Below, one piece after another: positions 30,154 through 47,022 of a stretch of 64,000 nt of DNA (position 1 is the stretch's first letter; the number at the start of each line of letters is the position of its first letter). The position numbers and the translations under genes are program-made. The notes beneath the pieces were generated by a model. That model was not told the DNA's origin and made no database searches. It saw only the letters and a list, made by a program, of their open reading frames with translations. This DNA is from an uncultured Desulfovibrionaceae bacterium (lineage in GTDB: Bacteria > Desulfobacterota > Desulfovibrionia > Desulfovibrionales > Desulfovibrionaceae): contig CALUZB010000015.1 in the NCBI GenBank assembly GCA_944325195.1, positions 1 through 64,000 of the forward strand, written 5' to 3'.

Positions 30154-30257
30154 TTTTGATGCGGCTATTTCAACTTGTCCGTTTTAGCCGCATATGTACC
30201 GGCCTTTATTATGTATAAGGTCTGAGCCGCAGCGATAACCCTTGCCTGGCGCAATTA

Positions 30258-30280
30258 CCGCCAAAGGCGGCTTGGTTTTC
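30258..30280 (+). terminator. Possible weak terminator after cysE
   Basis: CCGCC-AAA-GGCGG (30258-30270) followed by CTTGGTTTTC. The stem is short and the T tract imperfect. Confidence 0.35.
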
Positions 30281-30420
30281 TGTATGGTAGGGATCTGCTG
30301 TGTGGGGGGTAAGAACAACATTTTCAATTATCGATGTCTTATTGAACGCTTGTGCCGATGAGCCGCTTTGGCTGAGCTGGTTACGGTAAATCCGGTTTCA
30401 TTCGTTAAAATTTGCAGAAA

Positions 30421-30468
30421 CGTCAGAAGCCGTAAATGCTGCTTGCAAAGGCGGCTTCTGACGTTTAT
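30421..30468. terminator. Bidirectional terminator-like hairpin between cysE and porin 1
   Basis: CGTCAGAAGCCG (30421-30432) pairs perfectly with CGGCTTCTGACG (30452-30463) around a 19-base loop, with short T runs on both sides. It lies between two convergent genes, 102 bases past the porin stop, and can serve both. Confidence 0.55.
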
Positions 30469-30564
30469 GTTGATTGAGAGTGTTGCCCCAGAATAACTTT
30501 ATGCGCCGGGTCACTGGTCAGGCGATCTACGCTTGAGTTGCATTCTTCGGCAACACTCGCAATT

Positions 30565-32013
30565 CTAGAAGGTGTAGATGAACTCGACAAAGCCTTTGTA
30601 GGCGTTGGAGTCAAAGCTGTCCGGCTTGTTGTCCAGGTTGAGGTGGATATAACCAAGCTCCACTTTTACATCCAGATTGTCGTAGATGTTGATGACGTTG
30701 TCGAAGTTCACTTCCAGGCCTCTGTCCTGCCAACCGAACAATCCGTAAGTAGTGAAAGCTTCTTCCAGATCGTTGGTGTTGTTGGTTCCGCCAAAGTACA
30801 GAACGCGGATATGGGAAGTCAGGTTGTCGAAGTATTTGATGTTGTCAAGCGACGCGCCGATGCCCCATTTCCCATACGGATCACTGCCCACGGTGAATTC
30901 GCGTCCCACATCGTTGTTGCGCGCGAAACCGAAGCTGGTCAGACCGAAGTAGGGAGTATAGGAGGGCATCATTCCGTCCATGCCGTGATCGGTGAGGCCG
31001 TCGGAGCCTGAAGCATACCAGCCCCATATAGAGGGCGTAAAGTACTCCATTTTATAATCGAATTTCGCCATTACCGCCCAACCGTCCCGGTCCGGGTCCA
31101 TTGTATTGGTCAGGTATGGATCGCCCTCAAGCACGGTGTCGGCGGTATAACTGCCGTACATCAAATCCAGGTAAGCATAAAACGGGTCAAGATATGAAAA
31201 GGTGAGCGCTGTGCCGACCCACCAGGCTCTGCCGTTGTCGCCGAGAGTACCGGTGGCGGAGAGCCAGGGAGCGATGGCCCCGGTGTTGCCGCGTTCGCCC
31301 GTAGCCCGATCGATAAACCGGGTATCCACGTCGCCGATCATCGCAAACATGGTGTAGGGGTTGATGCTCAGCACATCGGGCACATCAATCGGGACGGACA
31401 GGATGAGCGAATCGATTTCGTCGCTGTTATACTTGTAATCGTGGGTTCCAAGGTAGGCGTCCCAGGGACGGAACCAGGCCACGGACACGCCCACTTCCTC
31501 GGTAATGTCTTTGGAAAGCACCATGCCGAAAGCGTTGTCGTCGAAGATTGATCCCCCGCCGCCGTAATCGCCCCGCCATACCGCCTGGGGCAGGCCGAAC
31601 CATTGCAGGCCCATTCTGGTATTGACGTCTATGCCCGGGATGAGCCAGTCCAGATACCAGAATTTGGTTCCCACGCTGACCCCGTCGGCGCCCATTGCGC
31701 CGCCGGCTCCGGGCCCGGCATAGCCGCCGCCCCAAGTGGCGCCGCCGCCATGCCCCCAGTCCGTGGTGGTTACGTTCAACTGGAGAACGCCCTTCAGGTT
31801 TTCATTGACTATGAACTGAAATCGGTTACTCATTTTTTGACGGGCATCGAACTTCTCGTCTGTTGTAAACTTATTCCAGTCGGTATTGTCGTATAGCCCG
31901 AACCCAAAGACCATTTTGCCGGAGTATTTGATCTCCACATCGTCCGCCAATGCACTTCCCGCTCCCGCGAAAGCCATGCAAGCCCCTGCAATTAATGCAA
32001 ACATCTTTTTCAT
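30565..32013 (-). CDS. Outer-membrane porin, Desulfovibrio homotrimeric type (porin 1)
   Basis: The 482-residue precursor has a signal peptide (MKKMFALIAGACMAFAGAG, ALA/D cleavage), many short amphipathic strands rich in aromatic residues, and a C-terminal strand ending in Phe (FVEFIYTF), the BamA recognition signature. The mature start DVEIKYSGKMVFGFGLYDN resembles the abundant trimeric porins of Desulfovibrio. It would allow passive entry of small hydrophilic solutes. GGAGGAG precedes the ATG. It is paralogous to porin 2 at 43329: FGFGLYD, GGATWGG and NVINIYENLD-type segments are shared. It lies next to hydrolase and MFS genes, suggesting substrate-linked expression. Confidence 0.88.
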   Translation of the reverse strand: MKKMFALIAGACMAFAGAGSALADDVEIKYSGKMVFGFGLYDNTDWNKFTTDEKFDARQKMSNRFQFIVNENLKGVLQLNVTTTDWGHGGGATWGGGYAGPGAGGAMGADGVSVGTKFWYLDWLIPGIDVNTRMGLQWFGLPQAVWRGDYGGGGSIFDDNAFGMVLSKDITEEVGVSVAWFRPWDAYLGTHDYKYNSDEIDSLILSVPIDVPDVLSINPYTMFAMIGDVDTRFIDRATGERGNTGAIAPWLSATGTLGDNGRAWWVGTALTFSYLDPFYAYLDLMYGSYTADTVLEGDPYLTNTMDPDRDGWAVMAKFDYKMEYFTPSIWGWYASGSDGLTDHGMDGMMPSYTPYFGLTSFGFARNNDVGREFTVGSDPYGKWGIGASLDNIKYFDNLTSHIRVLYFGGTNNTNDLEEAFTTYGLFGWQDRGLEVNFDNVINIYDNLDVKVELGYIHLNLDNKPDSFDSNAYKGFVEFIYTF

Positions 32014-32682
32014 CTACACTCCTCCAAGCCGGTATAGTGAAACCATTCAACCGAATCCGGCCATTCCGGATCCGTGTCGCCGTGCGAAAACCAAGTTTGA
32101 CCTTGGTGAAGCGCTTCACCGCGTTCAAACCAGACATCGCCCGACGATAAACCCTCCCGTTAAGCGTTCCGACGGCGGCGCGCACCGGTAACTTGCCGGA
32201 CGCCGGTGGACTTGCCGGGATTGTTTGTTCAAGCTGGAGCGGATTGACTTTGAGTCAATTCCACAGTGGATACTACCGGCAACCGGTAAGTGTTTTGCCG
32301 GTTCCGGGGACAGGTACGGCAGTGGCCGCACCTGTGATCCGAAGAGCACGATATTCAAATCTGCTCTTAAAGGCTCCATGCCGATTAACGTTTCAATAGT
32401 TCGCTTAGCCGTTTAACGGCGAGAATGTTCTAATGTTGCGTAAACAGCAAAATTACGTCCCATCACAGGCGGCGGGACCGCCGCCTGTTCCCGTTTGCCG
32501 GCAGAGAATTCCTGACCTCTGCCGGGTTTTCCAGGAGTGCCTGCCCTGGAAGCAGAGCCACTTTGGGAAGCATCTTCAGTGGAAGCTTCCGGTTATGGCG
32601 CATATCTTAATTTAACAGCGTTTTATGCCGTCGCAGCCGGAAACCGTCTTTACCGGCCAATTTAAAATCACAACCGGCCGGT
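32014..32682. other. Intergenic region upstream of porin 1
   Basis: 670 bases without a gene. It contains a perfect palindrome at 32105-32120, a dyad ATTGACT-TTG-AGTCAAT at 32243-32259, and a 9-bp GC hairpin (CAGGCGGCG-GGAC-CGCCGCCTG, 32466-32487) without a T tract, which may mark the end of the metallohydrolase transcript. Confidence 0.5.
32105..32120. promoter_or_regulatory. Perfect 16-bp palindrome upstream of porin 1
   Basis: GGTGAAGCGCTTCACC has two-fold symmetry with no spacer and lies about 92-107 bases upstream of the porin 1 start codon. It has the form of an operator for a dimeric regulator. It does not match the two dyad families found upstream of the MFS and hydrolase genes. Confidence 0.5.
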
Positions 32683-33729
32683 TCAGAGCTTTTCCCGGTT
32701 ATACTGCCTGTACATCGTCTTGGTGTTTCCCCGGTGCACCGCGGCATAAGGTTCAAGATATTCCAGCGTACCATCCGCAAAATAGTCGGCCATGAAGTCT
32801 TTAAGATGACTGTCCAGATAATCCGGCTCATGCACTCTCTGCACCAGCCTTTCCTGGTAGGTGATAGCGGCTTCAAGCAGGCGTTTACGGTATTCGCCGC
32901 GCGCAATCCGGTCAGGTGAACCGTGTCCGGGAAAGACATATTCAAAGTCATAGCTGGTTAAAAGACGCCTGGACTCTGCAATATGGGTTTCAATATCCTG
33001 GGGTTGGATCACATATACAAGGTTGTCTTCCGCCAGATCACCGAGAATCATGGCCTGATAGGCGGGCACAAGTGTGCAGAGCACGCCGCCTTCCTGGTGG
33101 CCTTCCACCGGGATCAGCTTCAGGTCAAAACCGGCCAGATTAATCTCGGTATCTTTCTCAATCAGCTTGTTGGGAAACACCAGCGGGTTGGTTGCGGGCA
33201 GCCCGAACATTGTCCCGGATTCAATCCGGTCTTTATATTTCACCAGGGCAGCATAAGTGCCTTTGGAGGCAATGATCGTTGAGTCGGCAAAGACGGCATT
33301 GCCGCCGGTATGATCCATATCCATGTGGGTGTTGATCACGGTGAACTGTTCAACCCCCAAACTTTCCAGGCGCCAGCGCACAAACCGGGCCTGTTCAGGG
33401 AGCAGCAGAGTGTCAATCACTACTGCCTCCTTACCCTTGAACAGCACATAGCAGGCGGTTCCAATGGTTAAATCAAACTGTCCCCAATTGTTGTCGTCTG
33501 CTCCCAGAATAGGGGAACCCGCTTTACCGTCGCGTCCGATGTAAAAGCACAGGAAATTGTCCGATAATTGAATGGTGCGTACAGCCGGGACCCAATTTTC
33601 ACGCTTGGGCCGGAATCCTTCTTTCCCGAAATCCAGTGGTGGAATTTCCGAGCGGGAAGCGGGAGATGCGCCCGCAGCTTTGCTGTCAGCCACAGCAGGG
33701 CAGGGAGTTTGGTTAAGTGATGTTTTCAT
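32683..33729 (-). CDS. Metallo-beta-lactamase-fold hydrolase
   Basis: The 348-residue protein has no signal peptide, an N-terminal extension of about 70 residues, then an MBL domain. The metal motifs are THMDMDHTGG (HxDxDH in place of HxHxDH), a later PVEGHQEGG histidine, LGDLAEDN for the bridging Asp, and FPGHGSPD for the last His. HxDxDH variants are common in glyoxalase-II-like and quorum-quenching hydrolases, so activity is likely but the substrate is unknown. It lies between MFS-1 and porin 1 on the same strand, and its promoter carries the same dyads as the MFS-1 promoter, so it probably acts on the imported compound. Confidence 0.85.
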   Translation of the reverse strand: MKTSLNQTPCPAVADSKAAGASPASRSEIPPLDFGKEGFRPKRENWVPAVRTIQLSDNFLCFYIGRDGKAGSPILGADDNNWGQFDLTIGTACYVLFKGKEAVVIDTLLLPEQARFVRWRLESLGVEQFTVINTHMDMDHTGGNAVFADSTIIASKGTYAALVKYKDRIESGTMFGLPATNPLVFPNKLIEKDTEINLAGFDLKLIPVEGHQEGGVLCTLVPAYQAMILGDLAEDNLVYVIQPQDIETHIAESRRLLTSYDFEYVFPGHGSPDRIARGEYRKRLLEAAITYQERLVQRVHEPDYLDSHLKDFMADYFADGTLEYLEPYAAVHRGNTKTMYRQYNREKL

Positions 33730-33765
33730 TATTGGTCCCCATTGAAGGTGTTATTGTTCAAAAAC

Positions 33766-33785
33766 CGGAGAGAGCATTCGCTCTG
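33766..33785 (-). promoter_or_regulatory. Second GGAGAGAGC-type operator upstream of the metallohydrolase
   Basis: CGGAGAGAGCATTCGCTCTG lies 37-56 bases upstream of the metallohydrolase start, inside its 5' leader. It matches 18 of 20 bases of the site at 35688-35707 upstream of MFS-1. The core is AGAGC-ATTC-GCTCT. Confidence 0.55.
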
Positions 33786-33860
33786 AAGCACAGATTTAGT
33801 TTCTCCTCTGCTCAGCCGCTCAGGGGTATGGATACCTTTTATCAGCATCAACCGCGGCTA

Positions 33861-33910
33861 TTGGAGAGAGGGCTCTCTCCAAAGTTATTGAAAAATAAAT
33901 TGCTTGTCAA
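33861..33910 (-). promoter_or_regulatory. Promoter and operator of the metallohydrolase gene
   Basis: On the minus strand TTGACA (33910-33905) is followed by a 17-base spacer and TAACTT (33887-33882), then directly by the perfect dyad TTGGAGAGAG-CC-CTCTCTCCAA (33882-33861). A repressor bound here would block transcription initiation. The adjacent tetR product is the natural candidate regulator, but this is inference. Confidence 0.6.
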
Positions 33911-33983
33911 TATAAACTGTCTTATTGAAATTGCTTTGAAACACGTCAGTTGCTCCCATATCTTGCCTGCATACCCGCAGGTT

Positions 33984-35243
33984 TTATTTCAAAGTGCCCT
34001 CAAGTCGCTTCCTTCTGCTCACCATTAAGGAGAGTATGGTAATGGACAGACCGATGACGCACAGAGTGTAAATCCAGATATAGGTATAGCCGTCGTTGCC
34101 GTAATTATCGAGCCAGGTGCCGAATAAAGCGGGCTGGAACAGGTCGGCGGAGAACAGAGCGGTTACCCCGATCACCATGCCGTGATTTTTGGCCGGCACC
34201 ATGGCGTCTTTGGCAATGCTGGCCTGGAGAGCGATATTCATAGTTCCCAACAGGCCCAGGATGAACACGATCACTACCAGCGCGGGCAGGGGAGTGTCGG
34301 CCGGCAGAATCATCACCACAATAACCAACAGGGCCAGGATGCACATGGAGCCGCGGATGACCTTGGCGGTGGAACCGAGCTTGTCGCCCAGCAGTCCGCC
34401 CAGGGGAGCGGAGATAATGCGCAAACCATACTGTCTGAACACGGCCACCACCCCGGAGAAGGCCACGGTGGTTCCCAACACAGCCGTGAAGTAGGGGGTG
34501 AAGTAGGAAATGGATACCTGGAAGGAGTAAATAGTAAAGCAGCCGAAAACGTAAAACCAGGTACCCGGGTCTTTAATTACCCGGCCGAGATCGCGAAGTG
34601 TGCTTTTGGCGCCGCCTGTGGCGGTGATTTCACCGTAAACTTCCATTTTTCTGGCCAGGAGATAACCACCGATGCAGGCAACGGTTCCGGCTGTGAAGAA
34701 GGCCCAGAGAATGGAGCTCAAGCCCGTGGACAGACTGATTTGGGCAAAATGTTCATACAAAGACAGACCGGCAACATTCACGATGATGCTTCCTACTGCC
34801 GTACCGATACCGAAGATCCCGAATGAGCGACCGATGGCTTCCGGCGGGGCCACTACCCGGATTGTCTTGTAAACCGCGGAATACCAGGCGCTCATGAAAA
34901 AACCGGCGCAGGCCCAGGTGGCAATGGCCACATAGTAAGTGGGGAAAGTGGCAAACAGGGCGCAGAATGTCATCATTCCGGCCAGACCGAAGCAGACGAC
35001 TTTGCGGCAGTCGAACTTATCGGCAATAATCCCGCCGGGTATGGCGGTAAACAGACCGGTAACCCCAATCAGGGTGATCAGTAAGCCGAGTTGCTGGTTG
35101 GTGATCTGCAGCGTTTCAATCATGGCGTCATAATAGACATACTGCATGTACATGAACCCCATTACTGTGGCGAATCCCAGGCCGGTCAGCAAGTACATTG
35201 CAATGTGTTTGGGCCCTATTCTGAATACTGTCCTGTCCTCCAT
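33984..35243 (-). CDS. MFS transporter (MFS-1)
   Basis: A 419-residue inner-membrane permease with 12 predicted helices. Motif A is GGIIADKFDCRK between helices 2 and 3, and the second half has SISYFTPYFTAVLG and GDKLGSTAKVIRGSM. Long stretches are nearly identical to MFS-2 at 38273 (for example AMYLLTGLGFATVMGFMYMQ and FSADLFQ-LFGTWLDN), so one is a recent duplicate. The family resembles organic-anion/sugar-phosphate-type permeases, but the substrate is unknown. GAGGAGG before the ATG at 35243 sets the start. Its promoter carries a dyad shared with the metallohydrolase gene. Confidence 0.9.
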   Translation of the reverse strand: MEDRTVFRIGPKHIAMYLLTGLGFATVMGFMYMQYVYYDAMIETLQITNQQLGLLITLIGVTGLFTAIPGGIIADKFDCRKVVCFGLAGMMTFCALFATFPTYYVAIATWACAGFFMSAWYSAVYKTIRVVAPPEAIGRSFGIFGIGTAVGSIIVNVAGLSLYEHFAQISLSTGLSSILWAFFTAGTVACIGGYLLARKMEVYGEITATGGAKSTLRDLGRVIKDPGTWFYVFGCFTIYSFQVSISYFTPYFTAVLGTTVAFSGVVAVFRQYGLRIISAPLGGLLGDKLGSTAKVIRGSMCILALLVIVVMILPADTPLPALVVIVFILGLLGTMNIALQASIAKDAMVPAKNHGMVIGVTALFSADLFQPALFGTWLDNYGNDGYTYIWIYTLCVIGLSITILSLMVSRRKRLEGTLK

Positions 35244-35687
35244 GTCATACCTCCTCAATTTATGGATCTGATTATGAAAACCGTCGCTGTTTCCCTGAAC
35301 AGCAGAATCAGCCGGACTGCTTTTGAAGGAATCAGAGTAAACTAACTTTACAAAGCTAATTTGTCCCGACGGTTGTGCAGGCAGACTCCCGCGTCGTAAT
35401 TATGCGGAAAAACAGTGGTTTTCCGCGAATAACAGGGCGCAATGATTGAAATGTATAATTCCAATCTGAAAATGCTCTGAGTATGCAAACCCATTGCACG
35501 CGCCATTCTGAAAGGAACACCGGTCGCGTTGCATTCCGACAGGAAAAGCCTTTCAAAGTCGGCTGTGAGTCTCTCCAGGATACGCACTGCCGGATTGCCC
35601 GAAAGACAAGGCATTGAGAACAACCTGTTCAGCTCACAACGTCAAGCAGGGGCGTTCCGGAATAAGTCCCTCTCAGTTTCGGTGTGT

Positions 35688-35736
35688 CGGAGAGAGCGCT
35701 CGCTCTCTAACTAGATAAAAACGAACTTTTTGTCAA
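35688..35736 (-). promoter_or_regulatory. Promoter and GGAGAGAGC-type operator upstream of MFS-1
   Basis: On the minus strand TTGACA (35736-35731) begins the element, and the dyad AGAGAGCG-AG-CGCTCTCT (35708-35691, extended by CCG to 35688) lies where the start site should be. The -10 is weak (TAGTTA at 17-base spacing). The dyad repeats the one upstream of the metallohydrolase. It implies a leader of about 450 bases before the MFS-1 ATG. Confidence 0.5.
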
Positions 35737-35857
35737 GACCAGGTGCGATTTGAGGGGCGATGGCCGGACAGCTTTACGCGCCCAAGCCATGCATCTATCC
35801 AGGGGCAACAGTTTTGGCGGTTCAGCACCTTGCTTGTCTTTTGCACCGGATTACGAA

Positions 35858-36511
35858 TTATTCCGGATCGGCTTTGGGCGACAGGCAGGTTCTCAGGTTA
35901 TCCACGATTCTGTTGATCAGCGTATCCACAGACAAATTGCCGTCGGCATCGCACAGGAATACCTCAAACCTTTTTCTGTGGTAGGTGGAAGCTAGGCTGA
36001 AGAAGAAGAGCAGAGTTTCACTGTCTATCAGGTAAGCCGCCTGTTTCGGCGGAATGGATCGGGCGATTTCTCCCCGGGCGATTGCCTTTTCCGCCAGATT
36101 GATCCAGGCGTTTTCAATAACCGTTTCTCCCTCTATGGTAATTTTGTCGGCCAGATCATTCATGGAAGTTGACCAGATGTCGGCATAAAGCAAAAAGTAG
36201 GCGGGGTGGCGCTGGAACGAAGCGGCCACACTGTTCAGCATCTGCCGGATCAGTTCATAGATGGAGCAGTCGGATTTTTCATGCAGGGCGTAAGCTGCCT
36301 GCATGGTTTTTACCACATGCTGGAACACATAGGTATAAAGTTTCTCTTTGCTTTTGAAATAGCGGTAAAGTGCCCCGTTCGACATGTTGGCCCGTTCGCA
36401 GATGGAATTGATATTGGCCCGCCAATATCCGTATTCCGCAAACACTTCGGCGGCGGCGTATAAAATTTCGTCCTGACGTTTTGTCGGCAACTTATTGAAT
36501 GTTTCGTACAT
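35858..36511 (-). CDS. TetR family transcriptional regulator
   Basis: The 217-residue protein has an N-terminal TetR helix-turn-helix (about 10-57; ILYAAAEVFAEYGYWRANIN and SNGALYRYFKSKEKLYTYV) and a helical ligand-binding C-terminal domain with a central aromatic/hydrophobic segment (HPAYFLLYADIW). AAGG lies about ten bases before the ATG. It is transcribed in the same direction as MFS-1, 615 bases upstream of it. It is the closest candidate to read the GGAGAGAGC dyads at the MFS-1 and metallohydrolase promoters. The ligand is presumably the transported compound or a product. Confidence 0.9.
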   Translation of the reverse strand: MYETFNKLPTKRQDEILYAAAEVFAEYGYWRANINSICERANMSNGALYRYFKSKEKLYTYVFQHVVKTMQAAYALHEKSDCSIYELIRQMLNSVAASFQRHPAYFLLYADIWSTSMNDLADKITIEGETVIENAWINLAEKAIARGEIARSIPPKQAAYLIDSETLLFFFSLASTYHRKRFEVFLCDADGNLSVDTLINRIVDNLRTCLSPKADPE

Positions 36512-37066
36512 GTATTTCTGCCTTATCTGCGGTTATTAATCCTGAATATAGGCCCGGCAGGCCGGCCGGGTGAACTGCATCGGTTGAGTCGGATTAGAAC
36601 ATTTAACTTTGAAATTGTCCACGCCTGTTGCAAGGGGGCGCCGGTCTTGAAACGGACCGGGCATATGTTCCGGAAGCTGCAGGGGTAGGGCGGTTCGCGC
36701 CGTTGCTGGTTCAGTCTGTACCGGGTTATGTTTAAATTATCGGGTATGAGAAGGAGGCGGTATGTGGCCGGGCTGCATCACCGACCACATACCTGTTGCC
36801 TTACGGCGTTTGCTCTGATTCTGCCGCTCGGGAGGGCTGACTTGAGGGGACAGTTTTTCCACCTGCTTAAAGCGCAGGCCGCGCAACTGAATGGTTGGTT
36901 TGCGGCGGACGTTGCTCGTCCAGTCAAAAGGCGCTGAACAGCTACCGCCTCAACCAGCTGCTTGAGCGCTGAGCCCGTCCCGGTCATTGGCGTGGGGAGT
37001 CGCCTTGAGGGAGACTTGGCAGACAGAGCAATGCTGCGGCTTGGGAATGCCCATGAACATCAAGGC
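36512..37066. other. Intergenic region between hydrolase 1 and tetR
   Basis: 555 bases without a supported gene. At 36751-36818 a strong AAGGAGG precedes an ATG (36762) and an 18-codon frame (MWPGCITDHIPVALRRLL). The site and start codon lie in or beside a perfect 9-bp stem (GGTATGTGG 36759-36767 with CCACATACC 36785-36793). It may be a leader-like micro-ORF or a remnant. Confidence 0.35.
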
Positions 37067-37648
37067 CTACAGAGCGGACTCCACGTCTGCTACCGTGATC
37101 AGGGCGTCTCTTTGCAAATACTGCATGGCTTTCAAGGCGTAATCGTGAGCTTCCTTACTGGAACCGGCGCAGGCGTCTGTAACCACTTTAAAATGATAGT
37201 CGTGCTGGTGGGCGTCAACAGCGGTATAATGCACACATACGTCTGTGAAGCCGCCGATCAGATACAGGGTTTTCGCCCCCAGCCCTTTAAGCAGAATTTC
37301 CAGGTCAGTTCCGAAAAAACCGCTGTAGCGCCGTTTGGTAATCTGATATTCGCCCTCAATGGGGTAAGTCAGATGCGCATAATCGGTGTGCGGGGAATCT
37401 TCCAGCAGATGTACTCCTTCCGTGCCGTCCAACTCGCGCCCGAAATCCACCATATCCTTTCTGTGCACTTCCTTAAGTTGGATAACCGGGATTTTCTTGG
37501 CCCGGAAAACGTCCAGAACCCGCTTGGCATTCTGAACCATTATCCGATCCGCTTCCATGGCCGCCTGTAAATTTTCGCTCCAGGTGCCGGTCATGTCGCC
37601 GCCTTGCACATCCACTACTACCAGAACGCTGTTTTCTTCAATTTTCAT
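37067..37648 (-). CDS. Isochorismatase-family cysteine hydrolase 1
   Basis: The 193-residue cytoplasmic protein has the family's Asp-Lys-Cys triad: Asp in VLVVVDVQGG, Lys in TKRRYSGF, and the nucleophile Cys in FTDVCVHYT. The block EVHRKDMVDFGRELDGTE is shared with the two paralogs at 39545 and 40229. Known relatives cleave amides, carbamoyl compounds or enol ethers (nicotinamidase, ureidoacrylate and biuret hydrolases), so the substrate class is only suggested. The ATG at 37648 follows GGAGAGGG; a TTG just upstream is less likely. It is transcribed divergently from MFS-2 and shares its operator half-site. Confidence 0.9.
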   Translation of the reverse strand: MKIEENSVLVVVDVQGGDMTGTWSENLQAAMEADRIMVQNAKRVLDVFRAKKIPVIQLKEVHRKDMVDFGRELDGTEGVHLLEDSPHTDYAHLTYPIEGEYQITKRRYSGFFGTDLEILLKGLGAKTLYLIGGFTDVCVHYTAVDAHQHDYHFKVVTDACAGSSKEAHDYALKAMQYLQRDALITVADVESAL

Positions 37649-37709
37649 CAATCCCTCTCCTTATGTTGTTGGTTGCAGTTGTAATGGGCAGATGTTGTTA
37701 TGGCAATTT

Positions 37710-37750
37710 GTATGATGACTTGATATACAAGTTTGCTGAAAAGGCGTCAA
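37710..37750 (-). promoter_or_regulatory. Promoter and AAGTCRTCAT-type operator of hydrolase 1
   Basis: On the minus strand TTGACG (37750-37745), a 17-base spacer and TATATC (37727-37722) form a promoter. ACTTG-TATAT-CAAGT (37732-37718) overlaps the -10, and the half-site CAAGTCATCATAC (37722-37710) runs over the start site. The half-site matches those upstream of MFS-2 and porin 2. Confidence 0.55.
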
Positions 37751-37907
37751 GCGAAATTTTCGGCTCAACTTGACGGGCAATGTTGCAGGCGGTGCGTATC
37801 GAGTTTGCCGGTTACACCACGACGTGCCAGGCGCCCGCCCTTCAGCCCTGTCCAGTTTAATTTACCCTAGGCCTTTTGCGGATTTGCCGGCTTTTTCCAA
37901 ATAAGGA

Positions 37908-37975
37908 TTGACAAGGTTGTTTTAAGTGAGTTATGACAACTTATATGACGACTTAAGTAATGTAAGTCGTCATAT
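37908..37975 (+). promoter_or_regulatory. Promoter and 13-bp dyad operator of the MFS-2 operon
   Basis: TTGACA (37908-37913), 17 bases, TTATGA (37931-37936), then a perfect inverted repeat: arms 37943-37955 and 37963-37975 (right arm TAAGTCGTCATAT) with a 7-base spacer. The dyad covers the expected start site, a repression geometry. Spacing from TTGACA to the dyad is 35 bases, identical to porin 2. The transcript would have a leader of about 330 bases before the MFS-2 ATG. Confidence 0.7.
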
Positions 37976-38272
37976 GCAGCAGCAGGTAACAAAAAGGGAC
38001 GTTCAGACGTACTGCTACTCTGAATATATCGCGGTTCAAGAAACAGAAGCTCAGATTGGTTTGCGATAGTTGGGACGTTTTTCGTAAGCCGAGGAAGGCC
38101 GGGAGGCTGCAGGCGCAGCCGGGAGTTCTCACCGGTTTGCGTCGCAAGCTGAGCGATTTCCGAAAGCTTCAAGGTTTGGCCGGGCTGTGTCCGCATTCAT
38201 TGCCATACCGCTTCATGCCGGTTTGGAAAGGTTTGAGCAGGTAGGGCATATTAACAATAGGAGGTAAAGTGT

Positions 38273-39517
38273 ATGTTTAAAATAGGGGTGAAGCATTACG
38301 CGATGTATCTGCTCACCGGCCTGGGGTTTGCCACGGTAATGGGCTTCATGTACATGCAGTATGTCTATTATGACGCCATGCTTGAAACCATGCAGATCAG
38401 CAATCAGCAGATGGGGCTTTTGATTACCACGCTGGGCATTTCAGCGCTGGTTACAGCCATTCCCGGCGGGATCATCGCCGACAAATACGATTGCCGTAAG
38501 GTACTGGCCTGGAGTCTGCTCGGGATCATGGCCTTTTGTGCCCTGTTCGCGGTTTTCCCCAACTATTATGTGGCGGTTGTCACCTGGGCGATTGCGGGCT
38601 GCATTATGAGCGCCTGGTATTCAGCGGTATATAAGGTAATCCGGGTTGTGGCTCCGCCGGAAGCCATCGGCCGCTCGTTCGGGATTTTCGGGATCGGCAC
38701 GGCTATCGGCAGTATTCTGGTTAACGTGGCCGGGCTTGCCCTGTATGAACATTTCGCCGCCCAGAGCCTTTCAACCGGCTTAAGCTCCATTCTCTGGGCT
38801 TTCTTCACTGCCGGCACCATTTCAGCCATCGGCGGTTATTTCCTTTCCATGAGTCTGCCGGTTTATGGCGAAATTACCGTTGAGGGCGGGGCTAAAACCA
38901 CCCTCAGCGACCTTGTGGCGGTATTCAAGGATGCAGGCACCTGGCTTTATGTAGTCGGCTGCTTCTGCATTTACTCCTTCCAGGTATCCATTTCCTACTT
39001 CACCCCTTACTTTACGGCTGTGTTGGGTACCACCGTGGCCTTCTCCGGCATCGTGGCCGTGTTCAGACAGTATGGTTTGCGCATTATCTCCGCGCCTATC
39101 GGCGGGGCATTGGGTGATAAACTCGGCTCCACCGCCAAGGTCATTCGCGGCTCCATGTGCATTTTGGGCCTGCTGGTATTGGTGGTGATGTTCCTGCCCG
39201 CCAGCACCCCGCTGGCCGTCCTGGTAGTGATTGTATTCATTCTGGGCCTTTTGGGCACCATGAACATTGCCTTGCAGTCAAGCATTGCCAAGGACGCAGT
39301 GGTCCCACCGAAAAATCATGGTCTGGTGGTGGGCCTTACCGCTCTGTTCTCCGCCGACCTGTTCCAACACACGCTGTTCGGCACTTGGCTCGATAACCAC
39401 GGCAACGACGGCTACACCTATATCTGGATTTACACCCTTTGCGTCATTGTGCTGGCGATTATCACCCTGAGCATAATGGTGAACCGCAGAAAGCGGATTG
39501 AGGGTGAATTAAAATAA
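38273..39517 (+). CDS. MFS transporter (MFS-2)
   Basis: A 414-residue, 12-helix inner-membrane permease, very close to MFS-1. Motif A is GGIIADKYDCRK. SISYFTPYFTAVLGTTVAFSG and the C-terminal IWIYTLCVI segment are shared almost word for word. AGGAGG precedes the ATG. Hydrolase 2 starts 27 bases after its stop on the same strand, so import and hydrolysis are probably co-transcribed. The near identity to MFS-1 under a different operator suggests duplication followed by regulatory divergence. The substrate is unknown. Confidence 0.9.
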   Translation: MFKIGVKHYAMYLLTGLGFATVMGFMYMQYVYYDAMLETMQISNQQMGLLITTLGISALVTAIPGGIIADKYDCRKVLAWSLLGIMAFCALFAVFPNYYVAVVTWAIAGCIMSAWYSAVYKVIRVVAPPEAIGRSFGIFGIGTAIGSILVNVAGLALYEHFAAQSLSTGLSSILWAFFTAGTISAIGGYFLSMSLPVYGEITVEGGAKTTLSDLVAVFKDAGTWLYVVGCFCIYSFQVSISYFTPYFTAVLGTTVAFSGIVAVFRQYGLRIISAPIGGALGDKLGSTAKVIRGSMCILGLLVLVVMFLPASTPLAVLVVIVFILGLLGTMNIALQSSIAKDAVVPPKNHGLVVGLTALFSADLFQHTLFGTWLDNHGNDGYTYIWIYTLCVIVLAIITLSIMVNRRKRIEGELK

Positions 39518-39544
39518 CCATAAGTGATTATTGGAGATACTATT

Positions 39545-40144
39545 ATGATTAAAGGTAAAGCGGCATTAGTGGTGGTGGATGTACAGCAGGGGATTATGGA
39601 TACTTCCCTGCATTGGTTCAAGCAGGAAAATGCGGACACGGTAATGCGGGTGAAGACGCTGGTGGATGCCTGTCGTGAGGCCGGAATTCCGGCGGCGTTT
39701 CTCTATGAAGTGCACCGCAAGTCGATGATTGACTTCGGCCGCGAGCTGGACGGCACGGAAAAGGTGCATTGCCTTGAGGATAACCCGAACACTCCCATTG
39801 CGTCCGCCCTGGAATTGCGGCCCGAGGACGCCATCATTCCCAAGCGTCGTTACAGCGGCTTTCTCTACACCGATCTGGAAGTGGTGCTGAACGGCTTTGG
39901 AGTGCATGCCGGCGATACCCTGATCATGTGCGGTTATTTAACCGACGTTTGCGTACACTACACCTTTGTGGACGCGCACCAGCGCGATTTCCGGATTAAG
40001 GTGGTGAAGGACTGTTGCGGCGGTTCCACCCAAAAGGCGCACGATTACGCATTTGACGCCATGTACTATCTGCAGCATGACGCCCCGTGCAATCTGGCTG
40101 AGATTCTTGAAGATATTAAGGAATACGGCTCCAGGCAGAAATAG
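39545..40144 (+). CDS. Isochorismatase-family cysteine hydrolase 2
   Basis: The 199-residue cytoplasmic enzyme has the triad Asp (ALVVVDVQQG), Lys (IPKRRYSGF) and Cys (LTDVCVHYTFVDAH). It is much closer to hydrolase 3 than to hydrolase 1; CGYLTDVCVHYTFVDAHQ and KDCCGGST-type segments are shared. The ATG at 39545 follows GGAG; the frame is open to 39524. It follows MFS-2 by 27 bases and precedes hydrolase 3, separated by an 84-base gap holding a GC-rich hairpin. Confidence 0.9.
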   Translation: MIKGKAALVVVDVQQGIMDTSLHWFKQENADTVMRVKTLVDACREAGIPAAFLYEVHRKSMIDFGRELDGTEKVHCLEDNPNTPIASALELRPEDAIIPKRRYSGFLYTDLEVVLNGFGVHAGDTLIMCGYLTDVCVHYTFVDAHQRDFRIKVVKDCCGGSTQKAHDYAFDAMYYLQHDAPCNLAEILEDIKEYGSRQK

Positions 40145-40159
40145 CGGCACAGATAAGAT

Positions 40160-40186
40160 TGCCGCCCGTCGGCGGGGCGGGCGGCA
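40160..40186 (+). promoter_or_regulatory. GC-rich intercistronic hairpin between hydrolases 2 and 3
   Basis: TGCCGCCCG (40160-40168) pairs perfectly with CGGGCGGCA (40178-40186) around a 9-base loop. No T tract follows. It may attenuate or stabilise the upstream mRNA, giving unequal expression of the two paralogs. Confidence 0.5.
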
Positions 40187-40228
40187 TTCCGGGCATAACA
40201 TTCAGGGAATGTATAGGAGGGACAGGTA

Positions 40229-40828
40229 ATGATTACAGGGAAAGCAGCGCTATTGGTGATAGACGTACAGGAAGGGATCATGGACCAGTCGTCCAAGTTC
40301 TATGATCCGGAAAATGCAGCAGGGGTGATGCGGATCAAGACCCTGCTTGACGCTTGCCGGGCAGCGGGCATTCCCCCGGTGTTTTTCAAGGAAGTGCATC
40401 GCCCATCGATGATCGACTTCGGACGGGAATTGGACGGTTCTGAAGGAGTGCATGCTCTTGAGAGCAGCCCGCGCACGGAAATAGCTGAAGTGCTGGCAGT
40501 GCGCCCGGAGGAGGCGGTAATACCCAAACGCCGCTACAGCAGTTTCCTGTACACGGATTTGAAAATAGTGCTCAACGGTCTGGGGGTGAACCCCGGCGAC
40601 ACTCTGATTCTTTGCGGCTACTTAACCGACGTGTGCGTGCATTACACCTTTGTGGATGCCCATCAACTGGATTTCCGACTCAAAGTGGTCAGGGACTGCT
40701 GCGGCGGCTCAACTGATGCGGCCCATGCGGGCGCCCTGAACGCCATGTACTATCTCCAGCATGAAGCCCCATGCAGTCTGGAGGAAATTCTCCGGGATAT
40801 AAAGGAATACGCTTCCAGAGCGGGTTGA
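40229..40828 (+). CDS. Isochorismatase-family cysteine hydrolase 3
   Basis: The 199-residue paralog of hydrolase 2 has the triad Asp (LLVIDVQEG), Lys (IPKRRYSSF) and Cys (LTDVCVHYTFVDAH), plus the shared block EVHRPSMIDFGRELDGSE. The ATG follows GGAGGGACAGG. Tandem duplication of hydrolases 2 and 3 could provide two substrate specificities or a heteromer. It lies at the end of the MFS-2 operon, with MFS-3 beginning 417 bases later. Confidence 0.9.
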   Translation: MITGKAALLVIDVQEGIMDQSSKFYDPENAAGVMRIKTLLDACRAAGIPPVFFKEVHRPSMIDFGRELDGSEGVHALESSPRTEIAEVLAVRPEEAVIPKRRYSSFLYTDLKIVLNGLGVNPGDTLILCGYLTDVCVHYTFVDAHQLDFRLKVVRDCCGGSTDAAHAGALNAMYYLQHEAPCSLEEILRDIKEYASRAG

Positions 40829-41245
40829 TTTGCAGCCCTTGTGGACGCGCTTGCGGGCAACGGCAAGATAAACAGCTTTTGTTTTGTCTGCAGGTGAGCG
40901 GCTTGCGGCCGGGAGCAGCGGCTTCAAAAGCTGTTTGTTCTTGAACGAAAATAAGAAAAGCCACTATTTGATAATCTATAACAAGTGCTTCAAGCAGGTG
41001 TGTTGCGGCATTTTGGCTGTTTGCCGGGCAACCCTGCCGGCACTGCGAGTGTGAAGGCTTTATCGTTTTCCAGAGCAGCCGGTCTGAATCTGTCCGGCTG
41101 GGCAAATCTATTCTGACCACCCCGCGGCTTTTCCGCCGGCGGCGCGGTCACGCTCGTTGCAGCGTCCGGTGTCGTGGAAGCACTTCCAAGGCCGGTCTGC
41201 TCTAGACGGTATTATTCTCAAAACCCGTAAATCTGGAGGTAGATG
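40829..41245. other. Intergenic upstream of MFS-3
   Basis: About 415 bases without a gene. A small dyad TGGAAG-CA-CTTCCA lies near 41175-41190. Neither of the two operator families was recognised here, so MFS-3 may be regulated separately or by read-through. Confidence 0.4.
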
Positions 41246-42508
41246 ATGAGCTTCCTGCGGAAAAACGGAATGTCTCCCAGATTGCTGCTTACCTATGTGG
41301 TGCTGGGGTTTGGATATCCGGGAATGATCGGCTTTGTGTTCATGCAGTATGTCTATTATGACGCGATGATGATGGCGATGCAGATTACCAACACGCAATT
41401 GGGGCTGCTGTTGACCATTGATGCGCTTGGGGCAATGCTCCTGGCCCTGCCCGGCGGGATATTGGCAGACCGGTTTGATTGCAAGAAAGTACTGGCCCTG
41501 TCTTTGGGCATAGCAACGCTTGCCTGTGTATGGTTCGCTCTTTACCCCACCTACCGCTCTGCTCTGGTGGTATGGAGTGTTTTGGCAGTGGTGATGTGCG
41601 GGTTTTATCCGGCTGTGTTCAAGGTGGTGCGGATTATAGCGCCGGAAAACGGTCAGGGCAAATCCTTCGGGATTTTCGGCGCCTGCAATGCCATTGGCTT
41701 CATGGCGGTTAATTTCACGGCCCTGAGCGTTTATCACGCCGTGCATGAAGGCGGCGGCCCCGTGGAAGCGCTTAGTGCAGTCCTGTGGGTTTTTGCGGCG
41801 GCGCTGGGCATCGGCACGATAGTGGGATATCTGCTTTTGCGGGGCGTAAGCAATCCGGAAGCGGAAGCCACGGAAGTAGATCGCTTTTCTTTTGCCAATT
41901 TGAAACAGGTGTTGAAAATGCCGGGTACCTGGCTGGTTTTCATTGTCGGGTTCTGTATCAATGGTCTGCATCTCAGCATATCGTATTTTACCCCCTATTT
42001 CACCAATGTGCTGGGTACTGCTCTGGTGGTCTCCGGGTCCTTGGCCGTTATCCGCCAATACGGCGTGCGCTTGGCGGCGAGCCCGTTGGGTGGCTGGTAT
42101 GGCGACAGGATCGGCTCCACAACCAAAGTGATCCGGCTTGTCGTATCCATCGCGGCGCTGCTGATTGCCGCAATCATGTTGTTACCGGCGGGCACAGCCT
42201 TACCGGTCATTATAATCCTGGTACTGCTGCTGGCGTTCATGAACAGCATTTCGCTCAGCCTCTGTTACAGTACCTTTGCTGAAGCTCTGATCCCCCGTCG
42301 CTACATGGGAACAGTAATCGGGGTGATTACCATACTGCTCCCCGACCTGTTCATCCCGCCATTATACGGCTATTGGCTGGATACTTATGGAAACTATGCT
42401 TATCGATACATATTCAGCTTTACCATTTTGATCTGCCTGATTTGTGTGGTTGGGGCCGGTCTGATCATTCGGCGCGCCGAAAAGTACCGTCGCAGGATAG
42501 TGTCATAA
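41246..42508 (+). CDS. MFS transporter (MFS-3)
   Basis: The 420-residue, 12-helix permease is a more divergent member of the same family as MFS-1 and MFS-2. GFVFMQYVYYDAM, motif A GGILADRFDCKK, SISYFTPYFTNVLG and GDRIGSTTKVIR align directly. Two ATGs lie in tandem (41243 and 41246); GGAGGT ends five bases before the second. It may handle a related substrate or export a hydrolysis product. It ends 298 bases before the porin 2 promoter. Confidence 0.9.
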   Translation: MSFLRKNGMSPRLLLTYVVLGFGYPGMIGFVFMQYVYYDAMMMAMQITNTQLGLLLTIDALGAMLLALPGGILADRFDCKKVLALSLGIATLACVWFALYPTYRSALVVWSVLAVVMCGFYPAVFKVVRIIAPENGQGKSFGIFGACNAIGFMAVNFTALSVYHAVHEGGGPVEALSAVLWVFAAALGIGTIVGYLLLRGVSNPEAEATEVDRFSFANLKQVLKMPGTWLVFIVGFCINGLHLSISYFTPYFTNVLGTALVVSGSLAVIRQYGVRLAASPLGGWYGDRIGSTTKVIRLVVSIAALLIAAIMLLPAGTALPVIIILVLLLAFMNSISLSLCYSTFAEALIPRRYMGTVIGVITILLPDLFIPPLYGYWLDTYGNYAYRYIFSFTILICLICVVGAGLIIRRAEKYRRRIVS

Positions 42509-42530
42509 TTTCTGTCCGTTAAAGCAGAAC

Positions 42531-42572
42531 ACCGCCCGGACCATCGGAAGCCGGTCTGATTGGCCGGGCGGT
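42531..42572 (+). terminator. Terminator-like hairpin after MFS-3
   Basis: ACCGCCCGG (42531-42539) pairs perfectly with CCGGGCGGT (42564-42572). There is no T tract, so termination would be inefficient or Rho-assisted. It lies 22 bases after the MFS-3 stop. Confidence 0.4.
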
Positions 42573-42806
42573 AGCCGGGATTTCAGCTTTGCCCAAGTTA
42601 TGACAGGGGGTTGTCGCCGGAGTGGCGAACTTCTCCGGGCGGCAGGCACCCCGGCAGTGGGGGCGTTAGTCTGTTCCGCCCGGCCCGGATGATTGATTTG
42701 GCTGGTGCATAAGCTTCCCCCATTCCTGCAGCCGCATTCTTCTATAATTTAGCCGGTGTTGAGCCGGTTGAATAATCCTGAAATGATTTAAATCAAAATA
42801 AATTGG

Positions 42807-42874
42807 TTGACAGACTTGTAATATTAAAGTTATTACAAGTCATATGATGACTTAATAAAGTTAAGTTGTCATCG
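42807..42874 (+). promoter_or_regulatory. Porin 2 promoter with two tandem dyads
   Basis: TTGACA (42807-42812), 17 bases, TTATTA (42830-42835). A perfect 11-bp dyad (GACTTGTAATA 42813-42823 with TATTACAAGTC 42831-42841) overlaps the spacer and -10. A second dyad (42842-42874) covers the start site and matches the MFS-2 operator at 25 of 33 positions, at the identical distance from TTGACA. Together they suggest tight repression by the regulator that controls MFS-2. Confidence 0.7.
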
Positions 42875-43141
42875 CCTAGGGACGGTTCTCACCATAAATG
42901 AGTTTGCATATGCCGGGCTACAGGCTCCGCCGGGAGCCGGGCGACCGGCTGAAATGAATGGATAAGCAGGGACGCTGGGGAGCAGGGACATTTGAGCGGC
43001 TGGGTAAGTAGCCCCGGCCCGGAAAAGCATTGGCGAACTCAACGTGCTCCTCACCGGGGAGAAATCCGGATTGTCATTGAATGAAACTCTGGCCCTGAAC
43101 GGACGTATTTTTCAGGTTCAGAAATGAAAGCTCAGAGCGTT

Positions 43142-43274
43142 TTCATTTTAAATGAAGTGCTTTGGCGTGCGAGGGCTTGCTCGCAGGGGATGTTCCCATT
43201 GCGCCTGGAGTGCAAACGGCGGTTTTGCCGCCGATTGAGGGACGCGCCGACTTTGAAATTACACAATTTCAAAG
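43142..43274 (+). promoter_or_regulatory. Structured 5' leader of porin 2
   Basis: The leader from the mapped promoter to the ATG is about 485 bases. It contains TTCATTT-T-AAATGAA (43142-43156), a TGCGAG/CTCGCA hairpin, CGGCGG-TTTTG-CCGCCG (43217-43233) and a 10-bp perfect hairpin CTTTGAAATT-ACAC-AATTTCAAAG (43251-43274) that ends 54 bases before the ATG. This could stabilise the mRNA or control translation. Confidence 0.45.
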
Positions 43275-43328
43275 CTGAGTCGGTTTGAAGAGAGGACGGC
43301 AGTGCATGCTGATAACCAAGGAGGGATT

Positions 43329-44792
43329 ATGAGAAAACTGTTCAATTGTTTTATGGCCGGCGCCATTTTATTCGGTACGGCGGCCGCGGCGTCTGCCACT
43401 GAAATTAAAATTAAAGGGCAATTTAATTTTGGTTTCGGTTTGTATGACGGCACTACTTTCACTAAACATGCTGGTGAAGAAAATTTTGATGTGGTCCAGC
43501 GCTTCAAAACCCAAATTGACTTTATTGCATCGGAGTCTTTGAAAGGCGTGCTCCAGTTGGAAATCGGCGATACCCGTTGGGGTAACGGCGGCGGCGCCAC
43601 TTGGGGCGGCTCTTCAGCCGGTTCAGGCACCGGCGGCGCAATGGGCGCTGACGGGGTCAGTGTCGAAGTACAACATGCCTATCTGGATTGGCTTGTGCCG
43701 AACACCGATTTGCAGGTGCGCATGGGCTTGCAGCCCTGGTGGTTGCCGGCCGCTGTAGTCAGAGCCGATTACAATACCGGGAATTTCATTCTTGACGAAG
43801 ACCTGGCGGGCGTATTGCTTTCCTACGGCTTCAACGACAATATCGGCGTGAATCTGGGCTGGTTCCGTCCCTGGAATCCTTATCTCGGCAATGAAGACCG
43901 CGACCTTTACCCATGGATGGATCACGACGAAATCGACCTGTTTGCCCTGACTGTTCCCATTGAAGTGTCCAAGAGCTTCCTGTTGCATCCTTACTTCATG
44001 TTTGCCAATGTAGGCGAGGTGGACGTTATGAGGGAAGATCCTGACGGAGGCTATTACAGTACTGGCCGCATAGCCAGCAGTCTGTCCGGCAACGACGCGC
44101 TCGGCGGCGACGGCAAGGCCTGGTGGGCTGGGGTGGCGTTTAATCTGGATCATTTTGACCCGTTCTTTGCCGCCTTTGACTTTGCTTACGGCAGCTATAC
44201 TGCCGACGATGTGGCCGCCCAGACTCCGATCAGCCCTGACCGGGCCGGTTGGGTGTTCGATTTAAAGTTCGGTTACAAGCTTGACTACTTCACTCCGGTT
44301 GTGTTCGGCTGGTACGGCTCCGGCGCGGACTATGACGGCGGCGACGGCAAGGACGGCATGATGCCCTATTTGTCTACTTTTTGGGGGATGACCAACTTCG
44401 GCGGCCCTGAAGCTCACTTTGCCGAAAAAGAATACCTGCTTATGGACAGCCCGGCCGGCAGCTGGGGGATTGGCGCGGGTCTTGAGGACATTCGCTTCCT
44501 TGAGGACCTCACTTCCCATTTGCGTTTCATGTACTTCCAAGGCACCAACGATCTTGAAAATTACAACAAGGCAGCCAAAGCTGCCGGTCGTGATGATGCC
44601 TTCCGCGCTATGTATATGTTCGACAAGTCCGACTGGGGCTTTGAAGTTAACCTGGATAATGTGATCAATATCTATGAAAACCTGGATATGTATGTGGATC
44701 TTGCCTATATTCATCTGGATGTGGAGCACCATGCAGACGATTTTGAAAGCAATGCCTGGAAGGGATATATCGGATTCACTTATAACTTCTAG
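43329..44792 (+). CDS. Outer-membrane porin, Desulfovibrio homotrimeric type (porin 2)
   Basis: The 487-residue precursor has a signal peptide (MRKLFNCFMAGAILFGTAAA, ASA/T cleavage) and repeated amphipathic strands, and ends in YIGFTYNF with C-terminal Phe. It is clearly paralogous to porin 1: both begin with a FGFGLYD strand, share the GGATWGG and GTGGAMGADGVSV-like loop, and end with NLDNVINIYENLD and HLDVE-type strands. AAGGAGGG precedes the ATG at 43329; a GTG-led extension to 43302 would bury that site. Its promoter shares operators with the MFS-2 operon, so porin and permease are probably induced together. Confidence 0.88.
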   Translation: MRKLFNCFMAGAILFGTAAAASATEIKIKGQFNFGFGLYDGTTFTKHAGEENFDVVQRFKTQIDFIASESLKGVLQLEIGDTRWGNGGGATWGGSSAGSGTGGAMGADGVSVEVQHAYLDWLVPNTDLQVRMGLQPWWLPAAVVRADYNTGNFILDEDLAGVLLSYGFNDNIGVNLGWFRPWNPYLGNEDRDLYPWMDHDEIDLFALTVPIEVSKSFLLHPYFMFANVGEVDVMREDPDGGYYSTGRIASSLSGNDALGGDGKAWWAGVAFNLDHFDPFFAAFDFAYGSYTADDVAAQTPISPDRAGWVFDLKFGYKLDYFTPVVFGWYGSGADYDGGDGKDGMMPYLSTFWGMTNFGGPEAHFAEKEYLLMDSPAGSWGIGAGLEDIRFLEDLTSHLRFMYFQGTNDLENYNKAAKAAGRDDAFRAMYMFDKSDWGFEVNLDNVINIYENLDMYVDLAYIHLDVEHHADDFESNAWKGYIGFTYNF

Positions 44793-44921
44793 GCAGAGTT
44801 ACTGCTAGGAGCAACCTGGAAAGTCATGCACTTGTCGCTTTGAAAAACTGATTGTGGAGGGTGACGGCTGGCTGTCAATCCAGATTCAGTACTATATAAG
44901 AGACTGCAAGCCGTTAAAGCA

Positions 44922-44958
44922 GGGGGAACTGATTTCTGTCGGTTCCCCTTGTTGTTTT
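44922..44958 (+). terminator. Terminator after porin 2
   Basis: GGGGAAC (44923-44929) pairs with GTTCCCC (44942-44948), followed by TTGTTGTTTTC. It lies about 130 bases after the porin stop. Confidence 0.6.
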
Positions 44959-45138
44959 CAGGCTGTTCAGGCGAGCTGAGCGGTGAGGCGGCGGGCTGAG
45001 CGGTCTTGTTTGAAATGTCGGCCTAACACCGGGCAAAGCCGGCCCGCGGGCATTTCGCGCCGAAGATTTCTTCAGTCAAAACGGGAATGGAAGCCGGGGG
45101 GATTCTGGGACTCCAGGCTTTAATTCAAGGCCTTTTCT

Positions 45139-45573
45139 CTATGTGCGCTCTGAGTAAGCTTGCTCAGCAGGGACATGCACTGCGCTTTGGGCTTCCGGTT
45201 TCTGGATATTGTCAGATTCCGGCTGCATGTGGGCTGTGGCCAGTCTGTAAGCCTTGATCGTTTCCTTTTGGGACTCAAATAATTCCCTTTCCAGTTGTTC
45301 TATCCTGGCCTTAAGACTGTGAAGATTTTCTGTTTCAGAACTGTTTACAGAGGGCGAACCAATATCGTTTGCGCCGTTGTCTCCTCTTCCAAAAATAAGC
45401 CATTCGGCTGAAATATCGTAATGATTACAGAAGGCGATAATAACCTCCAGCGGCATATCCCGTTCACCGCTTTCATAACGGTATAAGGTTTGCGGGTGTA
45501 TATTTAATTTTCTCGCTAAGCTCTCCCTGGTTTCCTTCCCCCTAAGAAGTCTGAGTCGTTCAGCAATTCCCAT
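45139..45573 (-). CDS. XRE-family helix-turn-helix regulator with C-terminal coiled coil
   Basis: The 144-residue protein has an N-terminal Cro/C1-type HTH (about 3-62; LARKLNIHPQTLYRYESGERDM) and a short coiled coil (about 84-110; LKARIEQLERELFESQKE) likely used for oligomerisation. The C-terminal tail is disordered-looking. AAGGAAG precedes the ATG. A tandem repeat just upstream of the start is a candidate autoregulatory operator. It stands alone between porin 2 and gntR, so its targets are not evident. Confidence 0.85.
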   Translation of the reverse strand: MGIAERLRLLRGKETRESLARKLNIHPQTLYRYESGERDMPLEVIIAFCNHYDISAEWLIFGRGDNGANDIGSPSVNSSETENLHSLKARIEQLERELFESQKETIKAYRLATAHMQPESDNIQKPEAQSAVHVPAEQAYSERT

Positions 45574-45590
45574 TAAACGCTTCCTTCATA

Positions 45591-45614
45591 GAAACTGTTT
45601 AAGAAACTGTTTAA
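45591..45614 (-). promoter_or_regulatory. Tandem 12-bp repeat upstream of the XRE gene
   Basis: GAAACTGTTTAA occurs twice in direct succession (45591-45602 and 45603-45614), 18-41 bases upstream of the XRE start codon. The second copy continues as CTGTT-T-AACAG, a small dyad. This is a plausible autoregulatory site. Confidence 0.45.
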
Positions 45615-46125
45615 CAGGAACTTTCATAACTTATTGAAATTACTACTATCTTATCCGTATGGATAGAAAGTGAAATTGTCTGAATAAAAATGTTTGATTT
45701 TTTATGCCAAATGGTTTAAAAAGAACCTGTAAGCAGTTGTCATATCTATTTCCAGGTCAACTTTATGCAACTGCTTACCGTTAGTCAATGTTTGACAAGG
45801 TTCAGGGTTTGGCCAGATAAGCAATGTTCTTTTTTGATAGCGCCAAATGCTTATACAGAGCGCATATCGCAGGCGCATAGTCTTGAGCCTGGGGAATCAG
45901 GTTTTGATAAAGCAGCTTCGGGTGTCGACAATGAGCCTGTGTATATTGGGCTTATTCAGGAAAAGAAACGATAAGGTAGATATTAAAGCAACGGGCCGGG
46001 CCGTCCTGGCTTGGAGCAAATGAACAGACCAGACAACTGCAACGGGAAGGGGGTGGTGCGGGCTTTAGCCGTGACACTGCATTCTGAATCAGGTGTTGCG
46101 GGTTTTTACAGGCGGCGTCTGGTGT
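45615..46125. other. Intergenic with an 11-bp inverted repeat
   Basis: No supported gene. GTAAGCAGTTG (45729-45739) and CAACTGCTTAC (45768-45778) form a perfect inverted repeat with a 28-base spacer. A 69-codon frame begins at 45765 inside the right arm, but it has no ribosome binding site and no recognisable family. Confidence 0.4.
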
Positions 46126-46992: not shown

Positions 46993-47022
46993 GCGGCTGT
47001 ACGGAGCAAGGTGATGAGGGTA

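Follow-up and report, generated by a model that had tools for sequence, protein, structure and literature searches.

A group of porin, permease and hydrolase genes in the 64,000-nucleotide stretch of DNA analyzed here (the window, part of contig C15 in the 2.48-Mb, 27-contig genome of an uncultured Desulfovibrionaceae bacterium) raises the question of whether these genes work as one system, and on which kind of compound. According to our in silico analysis, they belong to an accessory island that we tentatively read, just short of an even chance, as a regulated system to take in, hydrolyze and probably hand on a small polar amide- or ureido-type compound. Its components come from known protein families; as a combination they are undescribed. 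The ten genes listed by a first-pass annotation are all open reading frames where it placed them and belong to the families it named (Pfam and NCBIfam profile scores), although some of its starts (MFS1, porin2, Iso1 and Iso2) lie 5′ of the likely real ones:

30565-32013, reverse strand: porin1, a DESULF_POR1 homotrimeric outer-membrane porin (NF033939, 344 bits, cut-off 250)
32683-33729, reverse strand: MBL-fold hydrolase with an HMDMDH motif (PF00753, 49.4 bits, cut-off 22.7)
33984-35243, reverse strand: MFS1 permease (PF07690), likely start ATG at ~35243
35858-36511, reverse strand: TetR-family regulator (PF00440)
37067-37651, reverse strand: Iso1, isochorismatase-like cysteine hydrolase (PF00857), ATG start at 37648
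38273-39517, forward strand: MFS2 permease (PF07690), ending 27 bp 5′ of Iso2
39545-40144, forward strand: Iso2, isochorismatase-like cysteine hydrolase (PF00857), ATG at 39545
40229-40828, forward strand: Iso3, a tandem duplicate of Iso2 (PF00857)
41243-42508, forward strand: MFS3 permease (PF07690)
43329-44792, forward strand: porin2, a DESULF_POR1 porin (NF033939, 409 bits, cut-off 250), likely ATG at ~43329

The layout from outer membrane to inner membrane to hydrolysis, described earlier as a complete path, is supported; similar layouts built from other parts are found elsewhere in this genome and among Alphaproteobacteria. In the mechanism that we propose, the compound would diffuse through the two trimeric porins and then cross the inner membrane with the MFS permeases as carriers; the cytoplasmic cysteine hydrolases would cleave it to ammonia and a carboxylate or amine, and a related molecule may have its ester, lactone or amide bond opened by the MBL enzyme. 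A product could leave the cell through one of the MFS proteins, one hydrolysis product being kept and the other sent out. We infer the direction of transport, the chemistry and the substrate class. A text search of the open-access literature found no paper on this combination, in agreement with the earlier statement that no described pathway is known to have such a composition.

That the locus is coherent, as had been proposed, is supported by an accessory island and by operators shared in two groups. The ~18.3-kb interval between cysE and cheA is one accessory block: in G035, the one other genome of the genus that was compared, the two genes lie on one contig with only 483 bp between them, and cysE is 91% identical to that of the window. 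The first-pass annotation had bounded the locus at 30565-44792; its genes are present, but the true unit is larger and adds an XRE and a GntR regulator:

29224-30153: cysE, the left neighbour of the island
~30154-48466: accessory island between cysE and cheA, defined as the block absent from G035
45139-45573, reverse strand: XRE-type helix-turn-helix protein (PF01381)
46126-46851, reverse strand: GntR/UTRA regulator (PF00392 and PF07702)
48466-51537: cheA, the right neighbour of the island

We saw no integrase among the open reading frames of the block and no tRNA near it. The intergenic DNA flanking the island is not alignable, and so gives no view of end repeats. A single empty site is compatible both with gain in the lineage of the window and with loss in G035; gain is favoured because of the scattered distribution of the genes and the origin of Iso1 (below). 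An agmatinase/arginase-like gene, judged by eye, lies far from the island, at 3682-4623.

Promoter regions of the island carry two predicted operators, A and B:

33768-33784: operator B copy 5′ of the MBL gene, GAGAGAGCATTCGCTCT
35690-35706: operator B copy 5′ of MFS1, GAGAGAGCGCTCGCTCT
37711-37723: operator A half-site 5′ of Iso1, TATGATGACTTGA
37946-37972: full palindromic operator A 5′ of MFS2, TGACGACTTAAGTAATGTAAGTCGTCA, 0 mismatches
42845-42871: full operator A 5′ of porin2, TGATGACTTAATAAAGTTAAGTTGTCA
46982-46991: operator A half-site 5′ of GntR, ATGATGACTT

The operator A palindrome (TGAYGACTT-N9-AAGTYRTCA, 0-1 mismatch) has only two sites in 2.48 Mb, before MFS2 and porin2, a count that none of 100 window shuffles reached, and five copies of its half-site ATGAYGACTT lie in the window against 0.2 expected from mononucleotide shuffles, each in a promoter region (Iso1, MFS2 twice, porin2 and GntR); the pattern was drawn from these same sites, and the shuffle figures therefore express rarity and are not an independent test. 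Motif B (GAGAGAGCNNTCGCTCT) precedes both MFS1 and the MBL gene. The operator sharing between promoters pointed out earlier is thus real, A being common to MFS2 and porin2 (with half-sites at Iso1 and GntR) and B to MFS1 and the MBL gene. It is also correct that the duplicated permeases stand under different operators, MFS1 with motif B and MFS2 with operator A, but calling them nearly identical was an overstatement, as they share 81% protein identity (MFS3, 42%). One switch would act through operator A on MFS2-Iso2-Iso3, porin2 and probably Iso1 and GntR, and a second through motif B on MFS1 and the MBL gene. We infer the pairing of regulators with sites: GntR is a candidate reader of operator A from its position and a half-site that precedes GntR itself, and TetR is a candidate reader of motif B from its position.

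The strongest argument that the parts work together is that the same kinds of genes are combined three times in this one genome, which holds three paralogues of the MBL gene and one of the Iso genes. At locus C4 (L034, G000 C4:237000-256500), a TetR gene (39% identical to that of the island) is followed by a sodium:solute symporter (SSS), an MBL gene (54%), a porin and an EamA transporter. At C19, a porin, an Iso gene (45%), a GntR gene (43% identical to that of the window) and an MBL gene (31%) lie within ~11 kb. This fourth Iso gene adjoins a putative membrane protein of 360 amino acids without Pfam or NCBIfam match, followed by the GntR and MBL genes (L033, 9581-14500). The operator A and B motifs were not found at the C4, C19 and C6 loci of the same genome, and the paralogous modules therefore use other sites; palindromes of the GAATGAATATTCATTC type precede the symporter at C4. 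Of the seven DESULF_POR1 porins of the genome, 4/7 lie in the island and at the C4 and C19 loci.

In the comparison with other genomes that follows, absence applies to the genomes examined and the thresholds used. The co-occurrence predicted for other Desulfovibrionales is not supported, as the set does not recur: Iso relatives (E ≤ 1e-25) were found in no other genome among 199 Desulfovibrionaceae, the MBL family is restricted to this genus among 288 genomes, and the nearest MFS elsewhere in the Desulfovibrionaceae is 33% identical. What does recur is the hydrolase together with a transporter, which is the rule across lineages, and in this genome and some Alphaproteobacteria an MBL gene and an outer-membrane channel join the pair. 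Gene calls in GC-rich loci are mechanical, with approximate start codons.

In gut Clostridia, the 3′ end of a MATE gene and the Iso gene overlap by ~20-40 bp in 6/20 loci (L005, L010, L011, L013, L017 and L021). The MATE frame of L005 is broken. In the same 20 loci, a different MATE precedes Iso in one more and a Gate-domain transporter follows it in two. A Blautia cluster (L008, 2077-12643) holds Iso, a Gate-domain transporter, a PucR-type regulator, two gamma-glutamyltransferases, an amidohydrolase and an iron alcohol dehydrogenase, and is a possible clue to the substrate. In Rhodobacterales, a 50%-identical Iso has a polar amino-acid ABC transporter on one side and a DMT gene on the other, with ornithine cyclodeaminase or RidA next in most cases; as in the island the hydrolase (~50%) is directly coupled to a transporter gene, but an ABC importer and DMT replace MFS and porin, and MBL is absent. 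In Rhizobium sp. WYJ-E13, two Iso genes, an MBL gene (32%), a MATE gene and a PotD-like ABC system lie within ~10 kb, and in two further alphaproteobacterial genomes (L080 and L081, possibly one lineage and not to be counted twice) a PotABD-like ABC system, LysR, Iso, two MBL-fold proteins and a TonB receptor stand together. These clusters resemble the island in combining Iso, MBL and inner-membrane transport, and L080/L081 also in outer-membrane transport, but have ABC (with a TonB receptor in L080/L081) where the island has MFS and porin, MATE replacing MFS in Rhizobium; the MBL is a distant relative, 32% identical in Rhizobium and weaker still in L080/L081.

Iso1 is ~60-83% identical to gut Lachnospiraceae proteins and nests within Clostridia/Lachnospiraceae proteins in our tree (support 98/94), and it has therefore moved between phyla. 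The island is partly of horizontal origin, with Iso1 from Clostridia; the porins are native to the family. MFS2 had no match at E ≤ 1e-55 in the 246 genomes of the order to which the Lachnospiraceae genome G304 belongs, and neither a search of genome contigs for related loci with Iso2 alone nor one of viral contigs with an MFS alignment returned anything.

The permeases give a different hint. MFS3 is 35-38% identical to Desulfovibrionaceae MFS genes beside 2-oxoacid:ferredoxin-oxidoreductase-like genes, and the neighbours of MFS relatives in this family resemble 2-oxoacid:ferredoxin oxidoreductase subunits, acyl-CoA synthetase or butyrate kinase (by eye, not by profile); a Peptoclostridium MFS has the same kind of neighbours by annotation. 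These operons contain the nearest MFS relatives found (30-38%), but lack hydrolase and porin and resemble carboxylic-acid metabolism, which suggests that this MFS branch, closest to MFS3, may carry carboxylates.

MATE and DMT/EamA proteins are mostly exporters, and because they are the usual partners of the hydrolase elsewhere, uptake alone is too simple an account. Since importers (ABC, SSS, porin and TonB receptor) recur along with families of exporter type (MATE, DMT and EamA), the simplest mechanism is that the compound is taken in, a C-N (or ester/lactone) bond is cleaved, and part of the products is exported. The same partners feed the main rival, detoxification, in which the hydrolases would inactivate a toxic amide, lactam or lactone from a plant, a host or an antibiotic, the MFS proteins would expel the compound or its fragments, and TetR and GntR would sense it. 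The overlap of MATE and Iso genes in Clostridia fits this explanation, as does TetR, under which efflux is often placed. Moreover, HqiA is an isochorismatase-like acyl-homoserine lactone (AHL) lactonase (PMC5430456) of the same superfamily, and lactones therefore stay possible substrates. The porins and the sodium symporter of the paralogous modules and the ABC importers of Alphaproteobacteria point to import instead, and we regard detoxification as doubtful.

Several observations weigh against the reading of uptake, cleavage and handing on. Only one genome showed the full gene set, and intergenic gaps of 400-800 bp within the block mean that genes other than MFS2-Iso2-Iso3 are not one operon. 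No MBL relative was found in the 18 clostridial genomes carrying Iso1 relatives, and since MBL-fold genes are common, some Iso-MBL neighbourhoods could be chance. The neighbours of Iso vary with lineage (ornithine cyclodeaminase, gamma-glutamyltransferase, nitrile hydratase and phosphotriesterase-like genes), and the hydrolases may thus act on different substrates; the MATE and EamA partners would suit detoxification or export no less than uptake. The absence of the whole set elsewhere, the wide gaps and the differing gene origins (Iso1 from Clostridia, porins native to the family) would also suit an accessory site that passively gathers transporters and enzymes which are unrelated to one another and serve separate roles. 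We find this unlikely, as operator A is common to genes 5 kb apart with full copies nowhere else in the genome, and the same gene kinds come together again at C4 and C19.

For the uptake and hydrolysis system that we prefer, the substrate class was approached through the hydrolases. Iso2 and Iso3 are ~72% identical and Iso1 is ~50% identical to both. All three score 120-132 bits with PF00857 (cut-off 27), and alignment confirmed the intact Asp-Lys-Cys triads reported earlier; D12, K100 and C136 (Iso2 numbering) are invariant in 18 aligned sequences. An AlphaFold model of Iso2 (mean pLDDT 84) matches isochorismatase-like hydrolases over its full length (Z 20-22, root-mean-square deviation 2.5-3.3, 177-190 residues; Z 21.6 to 3irv and 4l07). 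Because the leading matches (maleamate amidase, RutB, N-carbamoylsarcosine amidohydrolase and others) are practically tied, the comparison points to no single substrate. The Iso proteins share fold and triad with known PF00857 enzymes (maleamate amidase Ami/NicF, RutB, BiuH and N-carbamoylsarcosine amidohydrolase), but are only ~18-25% identical to solved members, lie far under the curated cut-offs of the BiuH, RutB, nicotinamidase and YcaC models, and have a conserved signature of their own (ExHR....D.GRE.DG.E..H and KxRY). A biuret/triuret hydrolase (BiuH/TrtA) is disfavoured by its score (NF050097, 47-67 bits, cut-off 370) and by a Tyr at the column of K145 in the HMMER alignment to 6azo, K145 being the second essential lysine of BiuH (PMC7948467). 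Scores likewise disfavour a RutB ureidoacrylate hydrolase (TIGR03614, 42-53 bits, cut-off 378) and a nicotinamidase/pyrazinamidase (NF008623, 29-45 bits, cut-off 174). In Gloeocapsopsis, an Iso gene adjoins nitrile hydratase, an amide-forming enzyme. An amide or ureide is proposed because of the enzyme family and the nitrile hydratase and amino-acid transport neighbours.

Removal of the carbamoyl group of citrulline or a related ornithine derivative by Iso, yielding ornithine, CO2 and ammonia, would fit the common fold with N-carbamoylsarcosine amidohydrolase and the place of the Rhodobacterales hydrolase, flanked by a basic/polar amino-acid ABC transporter and by ornithine cyclodeaminase (581 bits, cut-off 350), but we consider it improbable and only a rival because the known putative citrullinase CtlX already occurs in that cluster in Yoonia (CtlX-ocd adjacency is general; PMC9007349), the island has no ornithine-using gene, and 50% identity leaves specificity unfixed.

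The MBL protein belongs to its family as annotated, but does not have the HxHxDH metal motif that most members have: the motif is HMDMDH in the window, HMDLDH at C4 and HWHLHH, with the usual Asp replaced, in the C19 copy, and HxHxDH in the other aligned sequences. An identity as AiiA-type AHL lactonase is not supported (NF045699, 25.7 bits, cut-off 375). The sole MBL relative in G035 (L030 / L036, 8408-9304) has two TAA stops inside the match.

A wider reading, which we hold to be rather doubtful, is that the distinct Iso subfamily (D.GRE.DG, KRRYS), MBL and a dedicated importer/exporter pair would constitute an undescribed nitrogen catabolism of one amide-like class, assembled independently with porin and MFS here, TonB receptor and ABC in Alphaproteobacteria, and MATE in Lachnospiraceae. 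The hydrolase subfamily is one without an assigned substrate, and its genes accompany transporters in Desulfovibrionaceae, Lachnospiraceae, Alphaproteobacteria and on single actinobacterial and cyanobacterial plasmids. The island offers a compact, probably inducible and testable locus for it. Should it encode a pathway that scavenges nitrogen or carbon, a bacterial family otherwise without such genes would gain a nutrient route, in part from gut Clostridia.

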